Below are positions 2,694-17,406 of a DNA stretch of 64,000 nt, in pieces (the first letter of the stretch is position 1; every line of letters starts with the position of its first letter). The notes under the pieces were generated by a model, which did no database searches, was not told the origin of the DNA, and saw only the letters and a program-made list of their open reading frames with translations. Location of the stretch: positions 1 to 64,000 of the forward strand of contig CAMELV010000002.1 in the NCBI GenBank assembly GCA_945925985.1, in the 5' to 3' direction. The position numbers and the translations under genes are program-made. The DNA comes from Comamonas sp. lk (lineage in GTDB: Bacteria; Pseudomonadota; Gammaproteobacteria; Burkholderiales; Burkholderiaceae_C).

Positions 2694-3839
2694 TCAGAGT
2701 TTGACGGGCTCCAGCCTGAGCAAAGCCCCTTGAGCATCGTCAGTCAGCATGTAAACAAAGCCGTCTGGCCCCATGCGCACATCACGAATGCGGCCTAGCC
2801 GCCCTTGCAGCAAACGCTCTTCCTTCAGTACTTTCTCACCAGTGAGCGTCAGACGCACCAGCATCTGGCCGCGCAAAGCCCCGACCAGCAAATCGCCCTG
2901 CCATTGTGGAAACTGTGACCCGCTCACAAATGCCATTCCTGATGGCGCAATCGACGGTACCCACACATGCAAGGGCTGCACCATGCCAGGCTTGGCCTGA
3001 CCCTCACCAATTTTGGTGCCCCAGCCGTACTCCACACCGTAGGTGATGACGGGCCAGCCGTAATTAAGACCCGACCGCATCACATTGACCTCGTCGCCGC
3101 CTTGGGGCCCGTGTTCGTGCGTCCACAGTTCACCCGTCATGGGGTGCAGTGCAGCACCCTGCATGTTGCGGTTACCCAGCGTCCATTTTTCTGTCAAGGC
3201 CCCTGCCAGCTTGGCATAGGGATTGTCGGCAGGCACACGCCCGTCGTCGTGCAAGCGTATGACCGAGCCGGCGTGGTCGTTTAGTTTTTGGGCACGACCT
3301 TTTTCACCTCGGTCACCCAAGGTCAAGTACAGCATCCCGGATCGGTCGAACACGATTCGCCCGCCGAAATGGTGGCTTGAACGCGTTTTGGGCTGCATGC
3401 TAAAGAGCACCTGAACCTCGGTCATTCGCTGACCTTGAAGTTTGCCTCGAGCCAGGGCTGTTCCCCAGCCGCCCGGTCCAGGCGCGTTGTAGGCCCAATA
3501 GACCCAGCCATTTTGTGCGTATTGAGGATGGAGGGCCACGTCAAACAAACCGCCCTGCCCTTGCGCCACAATTTCAGGCAATCCTTCAATGGGTCTCGGG
3601 TCCAATTGAAAATCCTGTCCCACAAGCCGCAAACGCCCTTCAAGTTCGGTGACCAGCATTCGCCCATCGGGCAAAAAAGCCACCGACCAGGGATTTGCCA
3701 GGCCAGTCACCAAAGTGGCCACACGGAACGCGTGTTTCTCGGATTTAAAGACCGAAGACCCCTCCTGAGCCCAAGTGGGCAGACAAGATGCCGCGCACAC
3801 CAGCAGAACATAGATTGATCGAACAAGTTGGAGTCTCAT
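2694..3839 (-). CDS. PQQ-dependent aldose sugar dehydrogenase family protein (YliI-like)
   Basis: Soluble periplasmic beta-propeller of the glucose/sorbosone dehydrogenase family, which oxidises aldose sugars with PQQ. The chosen ATG (3839) gives 381 residues beginning with a signal peptide ending near TWAQ. A GTG at 3854 would add five residues, but it lies inside the guaA-derived att core. Family marks are GLANPWSVAFLPDGRML, the HHFGGRIVFD loop holding the catalytic-type His, GNRNMQG and the HEHGPQGGDE motif. No PQQ synthesis genes are seen here. The gene starts 10 bases from the outer att core, so its ribosome binding region (GGAG at 3853-3856) is part of the recombination site. Before the insertion it would have followed guaA directly. 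Confidence 0.85.
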   Translation of the reverse strand: MRLQLVRSIYVLLVCAASCLPTWAQEGSSVFKSEKHAFRVATLVTGLANPWSVAFLPDGRMLVTELEGRLRLVGQDFQLDPRPIEGLPEIVAQGQGGLFDVALHPQYAQNGWVYWAYNAPGPGGWGTALARGKLQGQRMTEVQVLFSMQPKTRSSHHFGGRIVFDRSGMLYLTLGDRGEKGRAQKLNDHAGSVIRLHDDGRVPADNPYAKLAGALTEKWTLGNRNMQGAALHPMTGELWTHEHGPQGGDEVNVMRSGLNYGWPVITYGVEYGWGTKIGEGQAKPGMVQPLHVWVPSIAPSGMAFVSGSQFPQWQGDLLVGALRGQMLVRLTLTGEKVLKEERLLQGRLGRIRDVRMGPDGFVYMLTDDAQGALLRLEPVKL

Positions 3840-3848
3840 GAGACTTAT

Positions 3849-3856
3849 TCCCACTC
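3849..3856. repeat. att core 1 (outer edge, next to sugar dehydrogenase)
   Basis: TCCCACTC. To its right lies the element-type flank CGTAGTTACTCG, identical to that of core 2. To its left lies unique chromosomal sequence running into the dehydrogenase start. This is the pattern of a chromosome-element hybrid site. On the minus strand it reads as a ghost of guaA, Thr-Thr-Glu-Trp-Glu followed by TAA. Confidence 0.75.
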
Positions 3857-3872
3857 CGTAGTTACTCGATCT

Positions 3873-3897
3873 AAAAACCCAGTGTTTATGCGGGTTT
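3873..3897 (-). terminator. Hairpin terminator downstream of methyltransferase gene 1
   Basis: On the minus strand AAACCC and GGGTTT pair around an 11-base loop and are followed by a T run. It lies inside the repeated arm, and the same hairpin is kept in copy 2 (5004-5029), so each unit carries its own stop signal for its gene. The stem is short. Confidence 0.5.
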
Positions 3898-4000
3898 CAA
3901 GCCATCCAAAACCAAGTGTGTAACTTTTGTGTAAGTCACGACAATAAATGCCAACAAGTTTCACACCTTAATTCTTTTCTTAATCAAAAACTTTGGGAAG

Positions 4001-4027
4001 ATTAAGTTACACAATGTGTAACTTAAT
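4001..4027. repeat. Perfect 13-bp inverted repeat in element arm
   Basis: ATTAAGTTACACA and its exact reverse complement are separated by a single A. It lies 20 bases beyond the stop of methyltransferase gene 1. The half site TGTGTAACTTAA recurs elsewhere in both arms. The corresponding site in the second unit (about 5131-5157) is decayed. It may bind a recombinase or accessory protein, or act as a transcript-end hairpin; there is no T run. Confidence 0.6.
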
Positions 4028-4046
4028 ATTTTAATAATTAAGTAAC

Positions 4047-4811
4047 CTAAATCGTTACAAACAAATATAACGAGCCTAAGTAAAAGTCAGCTTGTCTTAA
4101 ATTTCCATATCGCAAATCCCACTTACCACTATCAATATCATTCTTCAAGTTACTTACATATTCGTCAGCCAATCTACTATCAACAAAGCCCCAAGAGGAG
4201 CAACTTTGTCTCGCTTTTTTGTTCAATAACAGCTCTGGTCTTCCGTAATAAGCCTCATTAAATCCGTCACTACAGTTTAATGGAATTGGAACTTGTATTG
4301 AATTTACTTTTTGATTAAGTCCATCCTCTATTTCTTCTTTAGATGGAAAACGTTTAGCTTCAATTTCAAGTATCTGCGGAGCGTAATCGTATAACCAATA
4401 ATCACAAACTTTACTAGGCAAGCAAGACATTAAAATTACTTTACCTCGCGTTACACGACGCATTTCAGCAAGCCCTGTTCTTAAATCTTTCCATTGATGT
4501 ATGGAAAATATAGACATAGACGCATCAAACGTGTTGTCAGCAAATGGTAAATCTTCAGCTACAGCATTGATAGCAGGTTTTAATCCATAAGGACGTTGAG
4601 CCCTCATAGTGCTTGAGGGCTCAACAGCTGTTATGTTTATGTTTGTAGGCTCGTAAGAACCAGTCCCAGCACCAACGTTTAATACTGAATAAGCCTCGCC
4701 TAATTGCGAAACAATAACTTCTAGTATTTTGTATTCTGGTTTGCGAAAGTCACTGTAACTGCTACCAATAATTCCATAGTCAGTATCTCCAGCACTTCCA
4801 TCTTTGTTCAT
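4047..4811 (-). CDS. Class I SAM-dependent methyltransferase, cassette gene 1
   Basis: 254-residue predicted methyltransferase of unknown substrate. SAM motif I VLNVGAGTGSYEP is at about residues 43-55, the acidic residue of motif II is in AVEPS (Glu64), and AEDLPFADNTFDASMS (86-100) is the motif III/IV region. The opening YGIIGSSYSDFRKPEYKI is typical of a small soluble methyltransferase group. A good ribosome binding site (GGAAGTGAG) precedes the ATG. Codon use is strongly AT-biased, unlike guaA and the dehydrogenase on either side. It shares with the second cassette gene a C-terminal pattern of YWL, GRPE and SGK, so the two are distant paralogues. No transmembrane segment or signal peptide is seen. 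Confidence 0.85.
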   Translation of the reverse strand: MNKDGSAGDTDYGIIGSSYSDFRKPEYKILEVIVSQLGEAYSVLNVGAGTGSYEPTNINITAVEPSSTMRAQRPYGLKPAINAVAEDLPFADNTFDASMSIFSIHQWKDLRTGLAEMRRVTRGKVILMSCLPSKVCDYWLYDYAPQILEIEAKRFPSKEEIEDGLNQKVNSIQVPIPLNCSDGFNEAYYGRPELLLNKKARQSCSSWGFVDSRLADEYVSNLKNDIDSGKWDLRYGNLRQADFYLGSLYLFVTI

Positions 4812-4816
4812 TTCTC

Positions 4817-4980
4817 ACTTCCATTACGTAACTATGATTTCGAATAGTGTCGCCAGTGTGTAAGTTTATGTGTAACTTAAAACCTTCACAACTAATAAAA
4901 TCAATGACTTAGTGATTTCTTAGCGTGACACTCAAAAATCAAAAGTCTTTACCAATCAATCACTTAAAAATTCCCGTCAT
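4817..4980. repeat. Element arm B, copy 1 (leader of methyltransferase gene 1)
   Basis: Closely matches 6006-6163. It holds the doublet AGTGTGTAAGTTTATGTGTAA at 4855-4875, related to the doublet of arm A, and the shared CACTCAAAAATCAAAAGTCTTTACC region. On the minus strand TTGATT, 17 bases, TTTAAG is kept in both copies and is a weak promoter candidate for the gene. Its right end runs into att core 2. Confidence 0.8.
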
Positions 4981-4988
4981 TCCCACTC
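4981..4988. repeat. att core 2 (junction between the two units)
   Basis: TCCCACTC with element-type sequence on both sides: arm B ending TTAAAAATTCCCGTCAT on the left, CGTAGTTACTCGG and arm A on the right. This is the site expected on the circular form of the element. On the minus strand it still reads Thr-Thr-Glu-Trp-Glu-stop (TGA), a second ghost of the guaA end. Confidence 0.75.
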
Positions 4989-5000
4989 CGTAGTTACTCG

Positions 5001-5160
5001 GTCAAAAAACCCAGTGTTTATGCGGGTTTCAAGCCGACCAAAACCGAGTGTGTAACTTTTATGTAAGTCGAGGTTGTATTTTCTAACAAGTTTCATACCT
5101 TAATTTTTTTCTTAATCAACGACTTAAGCAAGTTTAAGTTACACACTGTGCAGTTTGATA
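5001..5160. repeat. Element arm A, copy 2
   Basis: Second copy of the arm at 3870-4030, with the doublet at 5047-5067 and the hairpin at 5004-5029. The terminal palindrome has decayed. The 50 bases between this arm and the end of methyltransferase gene 2 (5161-5210) are AT-rich and show nothing recognisable. Confidence 0.8.
5004..5029 (-). terminator. Hairpin terminator downstream of methyltransferase gene 2
   Basis: Same AAACCC/GGGTTT stem and T run as at 3873-3897, inside arm A copy 2. It should stop transcripts from gene 2, and any readthrough from guaA, before gene 1. Confidence 0.5.
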
Positions 5161-5210
5161 TTAATTCAAGAAAAGGCTGTATTGATCGTTAAAAAATTCT
5201 TAAATGCGCT

Positions 5211-5993
5211 TTAATTCTTGCGAGCAACAACATAAGCATAGTCACCAGAAATCGAAGAATATTTCTGTTTAATGCTTAGAAATTTTCCAGTGCTTAAATC
5301 TGCGCTTAGCGAACTAAGTCCATTACCTAGCTCTTCAATGTCGCATATTGAAGCGAAAGAAGAAATATTGGAACGCACATTGGGATCAAAATATATCTCA
5401 GGCCGTTCTTTACCAGAATATAAAAACATATCTTGTAGTTCGTTGGTAACAAAGAACGGGGCAATGTTTTTTACCTCAAAACCGACAGATTGCAGTGAAG
5501 TCACTAATGTTTTTTGATCTGGCATATTGTGAATAGAACGTCGCATCATCTCTGGGAAATAATTACACAGCCAATAGCTCTGCATTTGATCTGGAAACGC
5601 CGTAAAAATAATAAAATTCCCTTTATCAATGACACGATAGATTTCCTTAAATGCAGAAGTCAAATCAGTAAAATGATGTATAGCGAGAGAGCAAACAGCG
5701 CCATTGAAATACTCGTCAGAGTAAGGCAGTGAAGCTACATCACCTAAAGTCCATTTGATATTTGCATATTTGTCAAAAGCTTGTTTAAGCATAACTTCAG
5801 ATATATCAATGCCATACCATTCGCCACCTAAAGTGGCTATTGAAGAAGTATAGTTTCCAGTGCCACAAGCAACATCAAGAAATTTCCCGCCTTTCTCATT
5901 GCAAACAAGGCGGGAAATTTCTTGAGTAATTTCAGTATCAGCTTGTCGAGTAAACGTGTATGTTGAACCAATAGAATCGTATAGTTTTTCCAT
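5211..5993 (-). CDS. Class I SAM-dependent methyltransferase, cassette gene 2
   Basis: 260 residues from the ATG at 5993, which has GGAAGG six bases upstream; a TTG at 6005 would add four residues but leaves no ribosome site. SAM motif I LDVACGTGNY is at about residues 39-48, the ribose-binding acid is Asp63 in GIDIS, and the LPYSDEYFNGAVCSLAIHHF region (89-108) is the usual motif III/IV. The frame is intact and AT-rich. It is clearly diverged from cassette gene 1 but shares layout and the YWL, ERPE and STGK landmarks, so duplication inside the array is unlikely to be recent. Substrate unknown. It lies 167 bases downstream of the guaA stop, with no terminator seen between, so guaA readthrough is possible. 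Confidence 0.85.
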   Translation of the reverse strand: MEKLYDSIGSTYTFTRQADTEITQEISRLVCNEKGGKFLDVACGTGNYTSSIATLGGEWYGIDISEVMLKQAFDKYANIKWTLGDVASLPYSDEYFNGAVCSLAIHHFTDLTSAFKEIYRVIDKGNFIIFTAFPDQMQSYWLCNYFPEMMRRSIHNMPDQKTLVTSLQSVGFEVKNIAPFFVTNELQDMFLYSGKERPEIYFDPNVRSNISSFASICDIEELGNGLSSLSADLSTGKFLSIKQKYSSISGDYAYVVARKN

Positions 5994-6005
5994 ATCGCCT
6001 TCCAA

Positions 6006-6163
6006 AATACGTAACTATGATTTCGAATTGTGTCACCAGTGTGTAAGTTTATGTGTATCTTAAAATTCTCATATTCAATAAAATCAATGACTTAGTGATT
6101 TATCAGATTGACACTCAAAAATCAAAAGTCTTTACCACTCACTCACTTAAAAATTCCCGTCAC
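6006..6163. repeat. Element arm B, copy 2 (between guaA and methyltransferase gene 2)
   Basis: Second copy of 4817-4980, with the TGTGTAA doublet at 6038-6058 slightly altered (TGTGTATCT). It begins right at the guaA stop codon: the new guaA stop (TGA) and its context come from the element rather than the chromosome. Confidence 0.8.
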
Positions 6164-7776
6164 TCCCACTCAATAGTCGCCGGCGGCTTACTGCTCACGT
6201 CATAGGTCACACGGTTGATACCGCGCACTTCATTGATGATGCGGCTGGACACTTTTTTCAGCAGGGCGTAGGGTAGTTCGGCCCAGTCGGCGGTCATGAA
6301 GTCGCTGGTTTGCACGGCGCGCAGGGCCACCACATAGTCGTAAGTGCGGCCGTCGCCCATGACGCCGACGCTTTTCACCGGCAAAAACACGGTGAAGGCC
6401 TGGCTGGTGAGTTCGTACCAAGTCTTGCCGGTGGCCTCGTCCTGAAAATTGTGCAGTTCCTGGATGAAGATGTCGTCGGCGCGGCGAAGCAGGTCGGCAA
6501 ACTCTTGTTTGACCTCACCCAGTATGCGCACGCCCAGGCCTGGGCCGGGAAAGGGGTGGCGGTACACCATGTTGCGGGGCAGGCCCAGGGCCACGCCCAG
6601 CTCGCGCACCTCATCTTTGAACAGCTCGCGCAGCGGCTCCAGCAGCTTCAAACCCAGTTGCTCGGGCAGTCCGCCCACGTTGTGGTGGCTCTTGATGGTG
6701 ACGGCCTTTTTGTTACCCGCGCCGCCTGACTCGATCACATCAGGATAAATGGTGCCTTGCGCCAACCACTTTGCTCCGTTTTTAGTAGCGTCTCCGCGAG
6801 TGATATCAAGGGCTGCAGCCTTAAAACATGCCACAAACTCGCGGCCGATGATCTTGCGCTTGGCTTCTGGATCGCTCACCCCGGCCAAGTGCCCCAGAAA
6901 CTGCTCGGCCGCGTCAACCCGCACCACATTGGCGTGTAGCTGGCCGACAAACATGGCCATCACCTGGTCGCCCTCGTTCAGCCGCAGCAGGCCGTGGTCG
7001 ACAAACACGCAGGTGAGCTGGTCACCGATGGCGCGGTGAATCAGGGCGGCGGCCACTGATGAATCGACCCCGCCCGACAGGCCCAGGATGACTTCCTCGG
7101 TACCGACCTGGGCGCGGATTTTTTCAACCGCCTCAGCAATGTAGTCGCCCATGATCCAGTCGGCCCGCGCGCCGCAGATGCCCAGCACAAAGCGCTCTAA
7201 AATCGCCGCGCCAAGCGGGGTGTGGGTCACCTCGGGGTGAAACTGCACGCCATAAAAGCGCCGATCTTCGTCGGCCATGCCGGCAATCGGGCAGCTGGGC
7301 GTGCTGGCCATGAGCTTGAAGCCGTGGGGCAAGTCGGTGACCTTGTCGCCGTGGCTCATCCAGACCTTGAGGATGCCGTGGCCTTCGCCCGTGGCGTAGT
7401 CCTGGATGCCGCGCAGCAACTCGGTGTGGCCATGGGCGCGCACCTCCGCGTGGCCAAATTCACGCTGCTGGCCACTTTGCACCCGGCCGCCAAGCTGGTG
7501 CGCCATGGTCTGCATGCCGTAGCAGATGCCGAGCACCGGCAAGCCCAGCTCAAACACCGCATTGGGCGCTTTGTCAGTGCTGTCTTCGTAAACACTGGCG
7601 TGGCTGCCGGACAGGATGATGCCCTTGAGCGAGCCATCACGGGCGTAGGCGCGAACCCAGTCGTCGCTGACGTCGCAGGGGTGCACTTCGCAAAACACAT
7701 GGGCCTCGCGGATGCGACGGGCAATTAGCTGGGTGACTTGCGAGCCGAAGTCCAGAATCAGAATTTTTTGATGCAT
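6160..7776 (-). CDS. guaA: GMP synthase (glutamine-hydrolysing)
   Basis: Converts XMP to GMP with glutamine and ATP. 538 residues from ATG 7776, the start that gives the conserved [13 protein letters not shown]; an in-frame extension to 7881 is not protein-like. The N-terminal glutamine amidotransferase domain has the nucleophile motif GICYGMQ and the HPEVTHT histidine. The ATP pyrophosphatase domain has the P-loop GLSGGVDSS. The C-terminal dimerisation domain ends [10 protein letters not shown] segment near residues 318-333 ([15 protein letters not shown]) before WLAQGTIYP looks longer than in many homologues. Its 3' end is the attachment site for the methyltransferase units, and the last codons overlap att core 3. 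Pairs functionally with guaB upstream. Confidence 0.97.
6164..6171. repeat. att core 3 (inside the guaA stop region)
   Basis: TCCCACTC within the last codons of guaA. To its right is native guaA (AATAGTCGCCGG); to its left is element arm B. This is the other chromosome-element hybrid site, complementary to core 1. Joining the left side of core 1 to the right side of core 3 gives an uninterrupted guaA ending Glu-Trp-Glu-TAA. Confidence 0.75.
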
Positions 7777-7789
7777 AAATTGAAGATGG

Positions 7790-7870
7790 AACGGCCGCAG
7801 CGCAGGGCCGCCCCAAGCAAGGCCAGCTCCCTTGGGGGGCAGTGAGCTACACGCAGTGAGCGAGCGTGGG
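7790..7870. repeat. Comamonad-type intergenic repeat between guaB and guaA
   Basis: GC-rich non-coding stretch with GGCCGCCCCAAGCAAGGCC, CTTGGGGGGCAGTGAGC and GCAGTGAGCGAGCGTGGGGG. From memory, closely similar short repeats are frequent between genes in Comamonadaceae genomes. It separates guaB from guaA by about 100 bases and may fold into the mRNA between them. No other copy was found in this window. Confidence 0.4.
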
Positions 7871-7877
7871 GGCGACA

Positions 7878-9383
<1,506 letters not shown>

Positions 9384-14407: not shown

Positions 14408-17406
14408 GCGCCACCAACCGTCGTCTGAGCGCCGGTGGGCGGGTACAGCGCGGAACACCGTTGCGCTTCAGCTTCAATGGCCGCAGTTTTGAAGGGCTGG
14501 CCGGTGACACACTGGCCTCTGCATTGCTGGCCAATGGCGTGTCCCTGGTAGCGCGCAGCTGGAAATACCACCGACCGCGCGGCATTTTGAGCGCCGGCGT
14601 CGAGGAGCCCAATGCCCTGGTGCAGTTGTTTGACGGTGCCCGCACCGTGCCCAATGCGCGCATGACTGAGGTTGAACTGGTTAACGGGCTGAGCGCGGCG
14701 TCTATCCACGCTAAGCCCAGCATCGAGTTTGACCTGCGCAGTGTGAACGGCTGGTTTGCCCGATTTCTGCCAGCCGGTTTCTACTACAAAACCTTCATGG
14801 CCTCCCAAAAGGCGTGGCACTTTTTTGAACACCACATCCGCAAGGCCAGCGGCCTGGGTGAGTCGCCGCGCGAGGTGGACCCTGACCAATACGACAAGCG
14901 CTTTGCTTTTTGCGATGTGCTGATAGCGGGCGGTGGGCTGGCGGGCCTGAGCGCCGCGCTGGCAGCGGGTGCCTCTGGTGCGCGTGTGATTCTTGCTGAC
15001 GAACAGGCCGAACCAGGCGGTTGGCTGCTGTCCAGCGATGCCATGGTGGACGATCTGCCGGCCGCCGAATGGGTCGAAGATGCCCTGCGTCGGCTGCGCG
15101 CCATGCCCGAGGTGAAGATTCTGAGCCGAACCACGGTGTTTGGCTACCAGGACCACAATTTTTTGACGCTGGCTGAGCGCCGTGGCGACCACCTCGAAGG
15201 CGGTGTGGCACCGGTGCGCGAGCGGCTGTGGAAGGTGCGGGCCAAGCAGGTGGTGCTTGCCACTGGCGCCCATGAGCGCCCGCTGGTCTTTGCCAACAAT
15301 GACTTGCCAGGTGTGATGTTGGCCTCTGCCGTCTCCACCTATATCCGGCGTTACGCCGTGCTGTTGGGTCGGCAGGCGGTGGTTTTCACCAACAACGACA
15401 GTGCCTACGATGCGGCACTGGCTTTGCACCAGGCCGGTGCGTCGGTGACGGTGGTGGACGCCAGAGCCGTGGCCGATGGCGCGCTCAGTGAACAGGCGCG
15501 AAACCTGGGCCTGACGATTCTGGCTGGCCAAGTGGTGGTGGAAGCAAGCGGCGGCAAGGCCGTCAGCAGCGTAAAGATTTACCGGATGGATGGGCAGGGC
15601 CAGCTCCAGGGTGAGTCAAGCGCCCTCCCCTGTGACCTGCTGGCGGTCTCGGGTGGCTTCAGCCCGGTCATCCACCTGCATTGCCAGTCCAGCAGCAAAG
15701 TGGTCTGGAATGACACGTTGGCCTGCTTTCTGCCGGGTCCGGCGATGCAGGCCCAGCGCTCCGCCGGCAACTGCCGCCAACCCATGAACTTGTCCGACTG
15801 CGCTCAAGACGGCACAGCGGCCGGCCTGGCCGCCGTGCTTGCCGCAGGCTTGGCTGCGCCCGCCGTGGCGTCACCGCTGACCACAGCTCTGGCACCCGGC
15901 GCCTTGCGCAAACTGTGGGAAGTGCCCCACCCCAAGCCCACCAGCCGGGCGCCGAAGAAATTTGTCGATTTCCAGAACGATGTCGGTGCCAGTGACATTC
16001 ACCTCGCGGTGCGCGAGGGCTTTGAATCCATCGAGCACGTCAAGCGGTACACCGCCATGGGCTTCGGCACCGACCAGGGCAAGACCGGCAACATCAATGG
16101 CATGGGCATAGCGGCCCAGGTGTTGGGGCGCACCATTCCCGAAGTGGGCACCACCACCTTCAGGCCCAATTACACGCCGGTGACCTTTGGGCTGATAGCC
16201 GGCCATGAGCTGGGCGACCTTTTTGACCCCATCCGCACCACCGCCATCCATGACTGGCATGCCAGCCATGGCGCCTTGTTTGAGGATGTCGGGCAGTGGA
16301 AACGGCCCTGGTACTACCCGAAAAGCGGCGAAGACCTGCACGCCGCCGTGGCCCGCGAGGTGCTGGCCGTGCGCCGAAGCGTGGGCACGCTAGACGCCTC
16401 CACCCTGGGCAAGATTGACATTCAGGGGCCTGACGCCGCCGTGTTGCTCAACTGGCTGTACAGCAACGCCTGGTCCAAGCTGGAGGTGGGCAAATGCCGC
16501 TACGGCCTCATGCTCGACGAAAACGGCATGGTGTTTGACGATGGTGTGGCGGTTCGACTGGCCGAGAACCATTTCCTGATGCACACCACCACCGGTGGCG
16601 CAGCGCGGGTGCTGGCCTGGATGGAGCGCTGGCTGCAGACCGAGTGGCCGCACCTGCGGGTCTACCTGACCACGGTGACTGACCACTGGGCCACCACGGC
16701 AGTCGTCGGCAGCAAGGGGCGCGACGTGTTGCGCAAACTGTGCACCGACATTGACTTTGATGACACGGCTTTTCCGTTCATGTCCTGGCGTGAGGGCACC
16801 GTAGCGGGCATCAAGGCCCGTGTCATGCGCATCAGCTTTTCGGGCGAGCGCAGCTACGAGGTGAACGTGCCGGCCGCCGACGGTTTATTGGTTTGGGAAG
16901 CCATTCACACTGCGGGCGCCGAATTTGGCATCACACCCTACGGTACCGAGGCTATGCACGTGCTGCGCGCCGAAAAGGGTTACATCATCGTCGGGCAGGA
17001 CACCGATGGCTCCATGACCCCGATGGACCTGGGCCTGGGCGCCATGGTGGCCAAGACCAAGGATTGCCTGGGCAAGCGTTCGCTAAAGCGCTCCGACACC
17101 GTGCGGCCAGACCGCAAACAACTGGTGGGCCTGTTGACCGACGACCCGCAGTGGGTGCTCAAAGAAGGTGCCCAGATCACCGACAGCACCGATTTGTCGC
17201 AACTGCCGGTGCCCATGATCGGTCACGTGACGTCCAGCTACCTAAGCCCGACGCTCGGTCGCTCCATCGCCATGGCCGTGGTCAAGGGCGGCCATCAACG
17301 CACCGGCGAAACCGTTCAAGTGGCGCTCAGCAACGGCACAACGGTGCGAGCGACGATCGGCTCCACCGTGTTTTACGATCCCCAGTCGGAGCGCCAGAAT
17401 GCCTAA
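14404..17406 (+). CDS. soxA: Sarcosine oxidase alpha subunit
   Basis: 1000-residue large subunit, normal length. The N-terminal region (about 1-100) has the conserved SWKYHRPRGI and AGVEEPNALV. An NAD-binding Rossmann domain starts near residue 176 (VLIAGGGLAGLSAALAAG). The last 400 residues are a GcvT/aminomethyltransferase-type domain (FSGERSYEVNVPA, EKGYIIVGQDTDG) that transfers the one-carbon unit to tetrahydrofolate. Overlaps soxD by four bases and soxG by eight. Frame is intact throughout. Confidence 0.96.
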   Translation: MSATNRRLSAGGRVQRGTPLRFSFNGRSFEGLAGDTLASALLANGVSLVARSWKYHRPRGILSAGVEEPNALVQLFDGARTVPNARMTEVELVNGLSAASIHAKPSIEFDLRSVNGWFARFLPAGFYYKTFMASQKAWHFFEHHIRKASGLGESPREVDPDQYDKRFAFCDVLIAGGGLAGLSAALAAGASGARVILADEQAEPGGWLLSSDAMVDDLPAAEWVEDALRRLRAMPEVKILSRTTVFGYQDHNFLTLAERRGDHLEGGVAPVRERLWKVRAKQVVLATGAHERPLVFANNDLPGVMLASAVSTYIRRYAVLLGRQAVVFTNNDSAYDAALALHQAGASVTVVDARAVADGALSEQARNLGLTILAGQVVVEASGGKAVSSVKIYRMDGQGQLQGESSALPCDLLAVSGGFSPVIHLHCQSSSKVVWNDTLACFLPGPAMQAQRSAGNCRQPMNLSDCAQDGTAAGLAAVLAAGLAAPAVASPLTTALAPGALRKLWEVPHPKPTSRAPKKFVDFQNDVGASDIHLAVREGFESIEHVKRYTAMGFGTDQGKTGNINGMGIAAQVLGRTIPEVGTTTFRPNYTPVTFGLIAGHELGDLFDPIRTTAIHDWHASHGALFEDVGQWKRPWYYPKSGEDLHAAVAREVLAVRRSVGTLDASTLGKIDIQGPDAAVLLNWLYSNAWSKLEVGKCRYGLMLDENGMVFDDGVAVRLAENHFLMHTTTGGAARVLAWMERWLQTEWPHLRVYLTTVTDHWATTAVVGSKGRDVLRKLCTDIDFDDTAFPFMSWREGTVAGIKARVMRISFSGERSYEVNVPAADGLLVWEAIHTAGAEFGITPYGTEAMHVLRAEKGYIIVGQDTDGSMTPMDLGLGAMVAKTKDCLGKRSLKRSDTVRPDRKQLVGLLTDDPQWVLKEGAQITDSTDLSQLPVPMIGHVTSSYLSPTLGRSIAMAVVKGGHQRTGETVQVALSNGTTVRATIGSTVFYDPQSERQNA

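Follow-up and report, generated by a model that had tools for sequence, protein, structure and literature searches.

Tandem integrase-less single-gene cassettes at the guaA 3' end of Comamonas sp. lk as candidates for mobilisation in trans

Integrase-less units bounded by attachment (att) sites have been described from several bacteria. In Streptococcus, cis-mobilizable elements (CIMEs) are presented as deletion remnants that lie in tandem with integrative and conjugative elements (ICEs) or integrative and mobilizable elements (IMEs) and can be mobilised in cis (PMC7563491), and 15 islands without an integration module are reported at ssrA of Dehalococcoides (PMC3146451). At guaA, the GIsul2 integrase moves an integrase-less, att-bounded CR2-sul2 unit, as shown in recA-deficient Escherichia coli (PMC9376610). 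The additive flexible genomic islands of Methylopumilus, located at tRNA-Lys, range from 330 bp to 42 kb and contain 1–63 coding sequences (CDSs; PMC10872708). Here, we analysed the first 64,000 nucleotides of contig CAMELV010000002.1 of Comamonas sp. lk (hereafter, the window), in which two head-to-tail units, each with one methyltransferase gene between a left arm (arm A) and a right arm (arm B), adjoin the 3' end of guaA, the gene for guanosine monophosphate (GMP) synthase.

As far as the accounts above go, the window units resemble CIMEs and the Dehalococcoides islands in being integrase-less, in lying between putative att sites in tandem, and in using the 3' end of one gene. They differ from CIMEs in that units of the window type hold one gene each, have a private arm-B lineage with varied cargo, and adjoin guaA, and in that no matching integrase was found in their own genome. 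The CR2-sul2 unit shares the target gene end and the integrase-less build between att sites, but it is described as a single resistance unit within one island. The Methylopumilus islands, too, come with repeated copies of a gene 3' end, may be as small as a single CDS and occur in freshwater, whereas their described target is a tRNA gene. Given these close precedents, the statement in the preliminary description of this locus that no named system has such a layout is not supported. Integron gene cassettes hold one gene per unit, carry attC and form arrays served by a recombinase outside the unit. Units of the window type are comparable in their single genes, arrays, uniform orientation (6/6 cassettes) and presumed external recombinase, but have long arms (~340 bp in total, by eye) with repeated sites instead of attC, target guaA and would use a different recombinase; the likeness is an analogy only. 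Mobile insertion cassettes, i.e., transposase-less insertion sequence (IS) units with a passenger gene, are also non-autonomous one-gene units with conserved ends, but move by transposition and not by site-specific recombination.

The TCCCACTC core occurs three times in the window: at 3849..3856 (core 1, the outer junction with the chromosome), at 4981..4988 (core 2, the junction between the two cassettes) and at 6164..6171 (core 3, within the guaA 3' end). Measured core to core, cassette 1 (3849..4980) comprises 1132 bp and cassette 2 (4981..6163) 1183 bp. A repeat search of the window found a left arm of 184 nt repeated at 3847 and 4979 (84% identity) and a right arm of 170 nt repeated at 4825 and 6008 (89% identity). 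According to two arm models (R1 for arm B and R2 for arm A, 11 sequences each), arm A follows cores 1 and 2 (3849..4030, with GTGTAAC/G repeats, and 4981..5162; both plus strand) and arm B precedes cores 2 and 3 (4822..4980 and 6005..6163; both plus strand), the second copy of arm B providing the stop codon of guaA (6160..7881, minus strand). The sorting of the two arms by core, noted in the preliminary description, was reproduced apart from a weak arm-A match at 4852-4966 (E = 0.12), the sole other arm match in the window at E <= 1. GC content is 36% in the units versus 62% in guaA. BLAST of the left arm against the genome of Comamonas sp. lk returned both array copies and one short palindromic stretch, and the E-value of the second copy (1.2e-52) rules out a chance origin of the arm repeats. 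No additional array copies were found in this genome, either by arm-A BLAST or by the arm-B model, which matched only the two (E <= 1e-5).

Each unit contains a single long open reading frame (ORF), on the minus strand as is guaA. Both encode class I S-adenosylmethionine (SAM)-dependent methyltransferases matching Pfam Methyltransf_11, of 254 aa (4047..4811, minus strand) and of 264 aa as listed from a TTG codon (5211..6005, minus strand), with an ATG at 5993 behind GGAAGG as the likelier start of the latter (by eye). Core positions, arm repeats, ORFs and Pfam matches therefore confirm two one-methyltransferase units bounded by three cores. Because the two proteins are only 23% identical, the arms are common to both units and the cargo is not, which rules out tandem duplication of one unit. 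Near-identical relatives of both genes exist in the protein set, in 98%-identity clusters of 68 and 189 member sequences. Within the second methyltransferase CDS (5875-5925) lies a perfect inverted repeat of 19 bp with a 13-nt loop, whose RNA folds 6.4 standard deviations better than shuffles. Neither the ORFs nor integrase searches revealed an integrase gene inside the units, which are thus not islands with an integrase of their own (mobilizable genomic islands, MGIs, or IMEs). With one methyltransferase ORF and no integrase or transfer gene between putative att sites, they agree with CIMEs in their build, and like the GIsul2-type unit they have a predicted att core at the guaA 3' end.

We consider it probable that the window units are non-autonomous, site-specific gene cassettes that are mobilised in trans by integrases of guaA islands. 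One cargo gene would lie between arm A (~180 bp) and arm B (~160 bp), and the two arms together would act as attP arms for a tyrosine integrase that targets guaA. The helper would be a guaA island with that integrase in the same cell; the integrase would bind the GTGTAAC-type arm sites and recombine the TCCCACTC core with the core at the guaA 3' end. A cassette could thereby exit as a circle or insert, with repeated insertion giving an array, and guaA would stay intact on insertion, its last codon and stop codon being restored by arm B. Direct observations behind this reading are the anatomy of the array and its site, cargo that changes between like arms, units that are nearly identical in distant hosts and whose identity breaks off at the core, relatives with related arms that bear an integrase, and the enrichment of repeats in the arms. 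The direct experimental precedent is the action of the GIsul2 integrase on the CR2-sul2 unit in recA-deficient E. coli (PMC9376610).

Changing cargo was found in other genomes. An exact scan for TCCCACTCNNTAGTTACTCG in a collection with one genome per species (84,980 species) returned 15 stretches in 14 genomes, mostly metagenome-assembled genomes (MAGs) of Burkholderiales and many near contig ends, with guaA within reach at four of the 15 loci (L015, L018, L020 and L022). In L015 and L020, the one gene of an 882-bp unit is FosX-like (NCBIfam FosX at 164 bits against a cut-off of 170, nothing in Pfam), and that of a 1001-bp unit in L055 is of the SGNH type, with a weak match in NCBIfam and none in Pfam. 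A 744-bp unit in L126 carries a DUF2306 gene, and a 1812-bp unit in L170 (a single-contig genome) one FkbM methyltransferase; arm A of L126 lacks ~30 nt beside the core. Since another arm-B-like stretch lies left of the L055 core, L055 is an array too. The preliminary description, which had staked its proposal on like arms around other single genes at other guaA loci, is borne out here: arm-like sequences are present there, with FosX-like, SGNH-type, DUF2306 and FkbM cargo. A degenerate unit in L061 contains a gene for a 176-aa membrane protein (by eye). Integrase-less one-gene units also occur with other arms, namely L181 (1709 bp; a 458-aa, metallo-hydrolase-like protein, by eye), L185 (2404 bp; an acyltransferase, Pfam Acyl_transf_3) and L231 (1396 bp; FkbM-like, by eye), with one gene oriented with guaA and two against; the integrase-less units in L218, L228 and L230 are larger, and their genes are several or broken. 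Six loci with only arm A before the contig end (L008, L010, L012, L013, L014 and L017) were excluded as cassettes, and three with arm B and no arm A in sight (L168, L169 and L186) were classed as decayed. Window-type cassettes or arms span at least three genera in two families: the genus of the window, the genus of G260 (L055 and L126) and the genus of G429 (L170, L168, L169 and G788, which equals G1000).

Several of these records have further features. Positions 1062-2276 of L126 contain another guaA 3' end (~270 bp) that differs from the first, a VapBC-like gene pair (by eye) and, of arm B, no more than the final 60 bp. In L170, the guaA 3' end is present a second time, in decayed form (14741-15889), behind a two-gene unit resembling the AzlCD transporter (by eye). 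In a Nitrospirae MAG (L019/L057), the att pattern and only ~70 matching positions of arm A adjoin GC-rich DNA; L019 was set aside. The MAG of L016 is labelled Bordetella parapertussis, a label that may be wrong.

Whole units were compared between hosts without gaps. Between G793 and G788, the FosX-like unit shows 99.6% identity across 890 bp, and the left flanks share 25% identity over 72 bp, the right flanks (guaA) 67–71% and the whole guaA genes 69%. Similarly, the first 944 bp of window cassette 1 are 99.3% identical in L058 (MAG G789), with a left flank 28–40% identical and the guaA gene of that bin, on another contig, 69% identical. Identity breaks at the TCCCACTC core on both sides of the FosX-like unit and on the left side of cassette 1, as core-to-core site-specific recombination predicts and homologous exchange does not. 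DNA uptake followed by homologous recombination in guaA and its flanks, with no site-specific step, is accordingly a highly improbable account of these units: guaA-anchored exchange seems to occur, to judge from the second, different guaA 3' end beside the VapBC-like pair in L126, but the left flanks of the hosts are unrelated (25–40%), guaA is only ~69% identical, and identity ends at an 8-nt core. Searches for plasmid, phage or viral copies of the arms or cassettes found none.

The arms are distinguished by their repeats. Across the six window-type cassettes, GTGTAA[CG] is found 29 times in the arms (2130 bp) and twice in the cargo (4624 bp), an enrichment that would suit arm-type sites bound by a lambda-like integrase. 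Arm B restores the GAG or GAA (GAR) codon and the stop codon of guaA in 61 of the 62 core-bearing rows (66 rows in total, four coreless rows set aside). In all six window-type cassettes the cargo genes are co-oriented with guaA, and in three (both window cassettes and L126) the gene starts ~12 nt past the arm-B homology, so arm B may carry 5' signals of the cargo genes too. A sigma-70 promoter scan of arm B gave no site, and no structured RNA was matched in Rfam at E <= 0.1. In the reverse complement of the arm-B end (window 6150-6171) stands GGGAGTGACGGG, identical to the initial 12 bases of the CR2 terIS as quoted in PMC9376610; this stretch is partly guaA sequence, and the match may be a coincidence.

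In a tree of arm B, from which rows <100 nt were excluded, both window cassettes group in one clade (support 0.97) with the two copies of the FosX cassette, the SGNH, DUF2306 and FkbM (L170) cassettes, two solo arms and the left neighbour in L055. This clade of the window type comprises six different cargos and zero integrase-bearing members. It bears on whether the units are decayed islands of the CIME kind, each an independent deletion remnant of a guaA island, reduced to att arms and one gene and mobile, if at all, only in cis when a neighbouring island excises. Reported CIMEs of 1.2–13 kb (PMC7563491) would be a precedent, L018 and L022 resemble intermediates in carrying integrase fragments, and the one-gene units L181, L185 and L231 have arm B of the integrase type and look independently derived. 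Independent decay sits poorly, however, with six cargos in a single well-supported clade that has no integrase-bearing member, and the two units >99% identical in distant hosts, with breaks at the core, speak against movement in cis only. Moreover, CIMEs of Streptococcus salivarius are described as always farthest from the target gene (PMC7563491), whereas the window units adjoin guaA. We therefore regard decay as an unlikely origin of the window units. Mobilisation in trans, our preferred reading, could be taken further, in that the window-type units may form a dedicated family, in which one arm-B lineage captures new genes, crosses Burkholderiales genera on borrowed guaA-island integrases and forms arrays, integron-like but lacking a recombinase and equipped with long, double-stranded arms; we put this forward tentatively, as somewhat short of an even chance.

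Integrase-bearing relatives occur at the same site. The guaA islands in which both cores were seen measure about 5–16 kb and have a tyrosine integrase beside guaA and related arms; the intact integrases of L068, L059, L127 and L131 have 429–448 aa, and L135 has one of 367 aa. Matches to integrase queries were found in 1499 of 4936 candidates at E <= 0.001. Among 57 guaA loci with arm B, 37 have an integrase-query match starting <400 bp from guaA and 20 have none, based on three queries, with some matches cut by contig ends or broken and that of L233 only ~26–29% identical; since the loci were chosen by R1, this proportion is not a prevalence. A tyrosine recombinase beside similar arms, which the preliminary description had called for, was thus found in guaA islands of other genomes, and the genome of Comamonas sp. 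lk gave no integrase match.

Arm A ties some cassettes to such islands more closely than others, as it falls into a FosX-cassette type and a window type. At 93% identity, arm A of the FosX cassette is close to that of the integrase island G798, in which the integrase C-terminus and the arm share a contig with no core or arm B between them, and it is 87% identical to that of G794, in which integrase and arm are on different contigs; arm A of the FkbM cassette (L170) is 84% identical to that of G798. The G798 unit does not consist of an integrase alone, as the distance from the integrase end to arm A is ~8.5 kb. On this sequence evidence, the FosX and FkbM cassettes are tied directly to an integrase island through arm A, and the two window cassettes only through common architecture and a common arm-B type.

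Several points weigh against mobilisation of the window units in trans. None of the five integrase-island arms with which their arm A was compared exceeds 59% identity to it, and arm B of the window type does not have the inner TTTTGTGTAAC/G found in most integrase-type arms (by eye). An integrase lies at the guaA junction in none of the eight loci with the window arm-B type (the window, L015, L167, L055, L126, L170, L168 and L169; in L126 the arm is the last 60 bp only) versus 37 of 49 others (hypergeometric 7.6e-5, uncorrected for kinship of the loci). The genome of Comamonas sp. lk (94.8% complete) has zero matches to the integrase of the relatives, and its copies may be stranded; the array is therefore probably immobile at present. 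Exact window-like arm A is rare, found in three of 399 family genomes (<=2 mismatches, own genome included) and two of 399 order genomes (gapped pattern). In addition, the L058 contig ends inside the cassette and most hosts in the TCCCACTCNNTAGTTACTCG scan are MAGs. Excision as a circle, action of an integrase on the window arms and passage of DNA between cells are steps that we infer. The changing cargo between like arms, the core-bounded transfer of whole units and the integrases next to related arms elsewhere support the preliminary description in part.

The arms might instead be moved by another enzyme, either a related integrase not seen here or a short second tyrosine recombinase (191–221 aa) that occurs in several integrase-bearing guaA islands, namely L131 (15241-15867), L127 (2411-3076 of the reverse complement), L138 (2414-3079) and L016 (1-612), tested with Pfam in L016 and recognised by eye in the others. 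This would fit the finding that no long integrase was found with the window arm type, but the place of the long integrase behind arm B, <400 bp from guaA in the 37 loci, is the usual one of a cognate integrase, and we judge another enzyme to be quite improbable. The L131 island (16.1 kb) combines integrase and short recombinase with type I restriction-modification-like genes (by eye), and L127 and L138 also encode a 174-aa protein resembling a replication initiator (by eye).

The integrase of the relatives probably differs from that of GIsul2, because a tblastn search with the L068 integrase found no match in 72,556 plasmid records, whereas 3 of 31 GIsul2 copies are reported on plasmids (PMC9376610); GIsul2 is judged here by this published occurrence, and the comparison is thus indirect. 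Integrase matches were absent from the plasmid and phage sets, and a sequence profile of the integrase family found no relative among solved structures at E <= 0.01.

Arm B is more widespread than exact window-like arm A. R1 matched 10 of 399 genomes in the family sample and 21 of 399 in the order sample (E <= 1e-6), the latter in 14 of 159 genera when all arm-B matches are counted, as well as 18 of 151 genomes in the genus of G429 (E <= 1e-5) and six of 89 in the genus of the window (E <= 1e-5; four of the six reaching the core). In the genus of G260 it matched 27 of 84 at E <= 1e-3, of which 13 reach the core. These samples overlap. The weak remainder in the genus of G260 is probably another repeat. 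At the guaA ends of 12 relatives, four of them of the same genus, arm B was found in 0/12.

As far as open-licence PMC papers (preprints not included) show, the guaA cassette family, the arm-B lineage peculiar to it with single genes that vary, and the wide spread of arm-B guaA loci are new. If the reading is correct, site-specific recombination carries single genes, a FosX-family relative and several methyltransferases among them, between distant bacteria without the moving units encoding an integrase. Such units are easily missed, since assemblies often break at them in the data examined, and the arm A and arm B models offer a cheap marker at guaA for studying the origin and cargo capture of non-autonomous integrative elements. 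On the far side of the array, the ORF list places a chromosomal gene on the minus strand (2694..3854), which we take to be PQQ (pyrroloquinoline quinone)-dependent sugar dehydrogenase-like.

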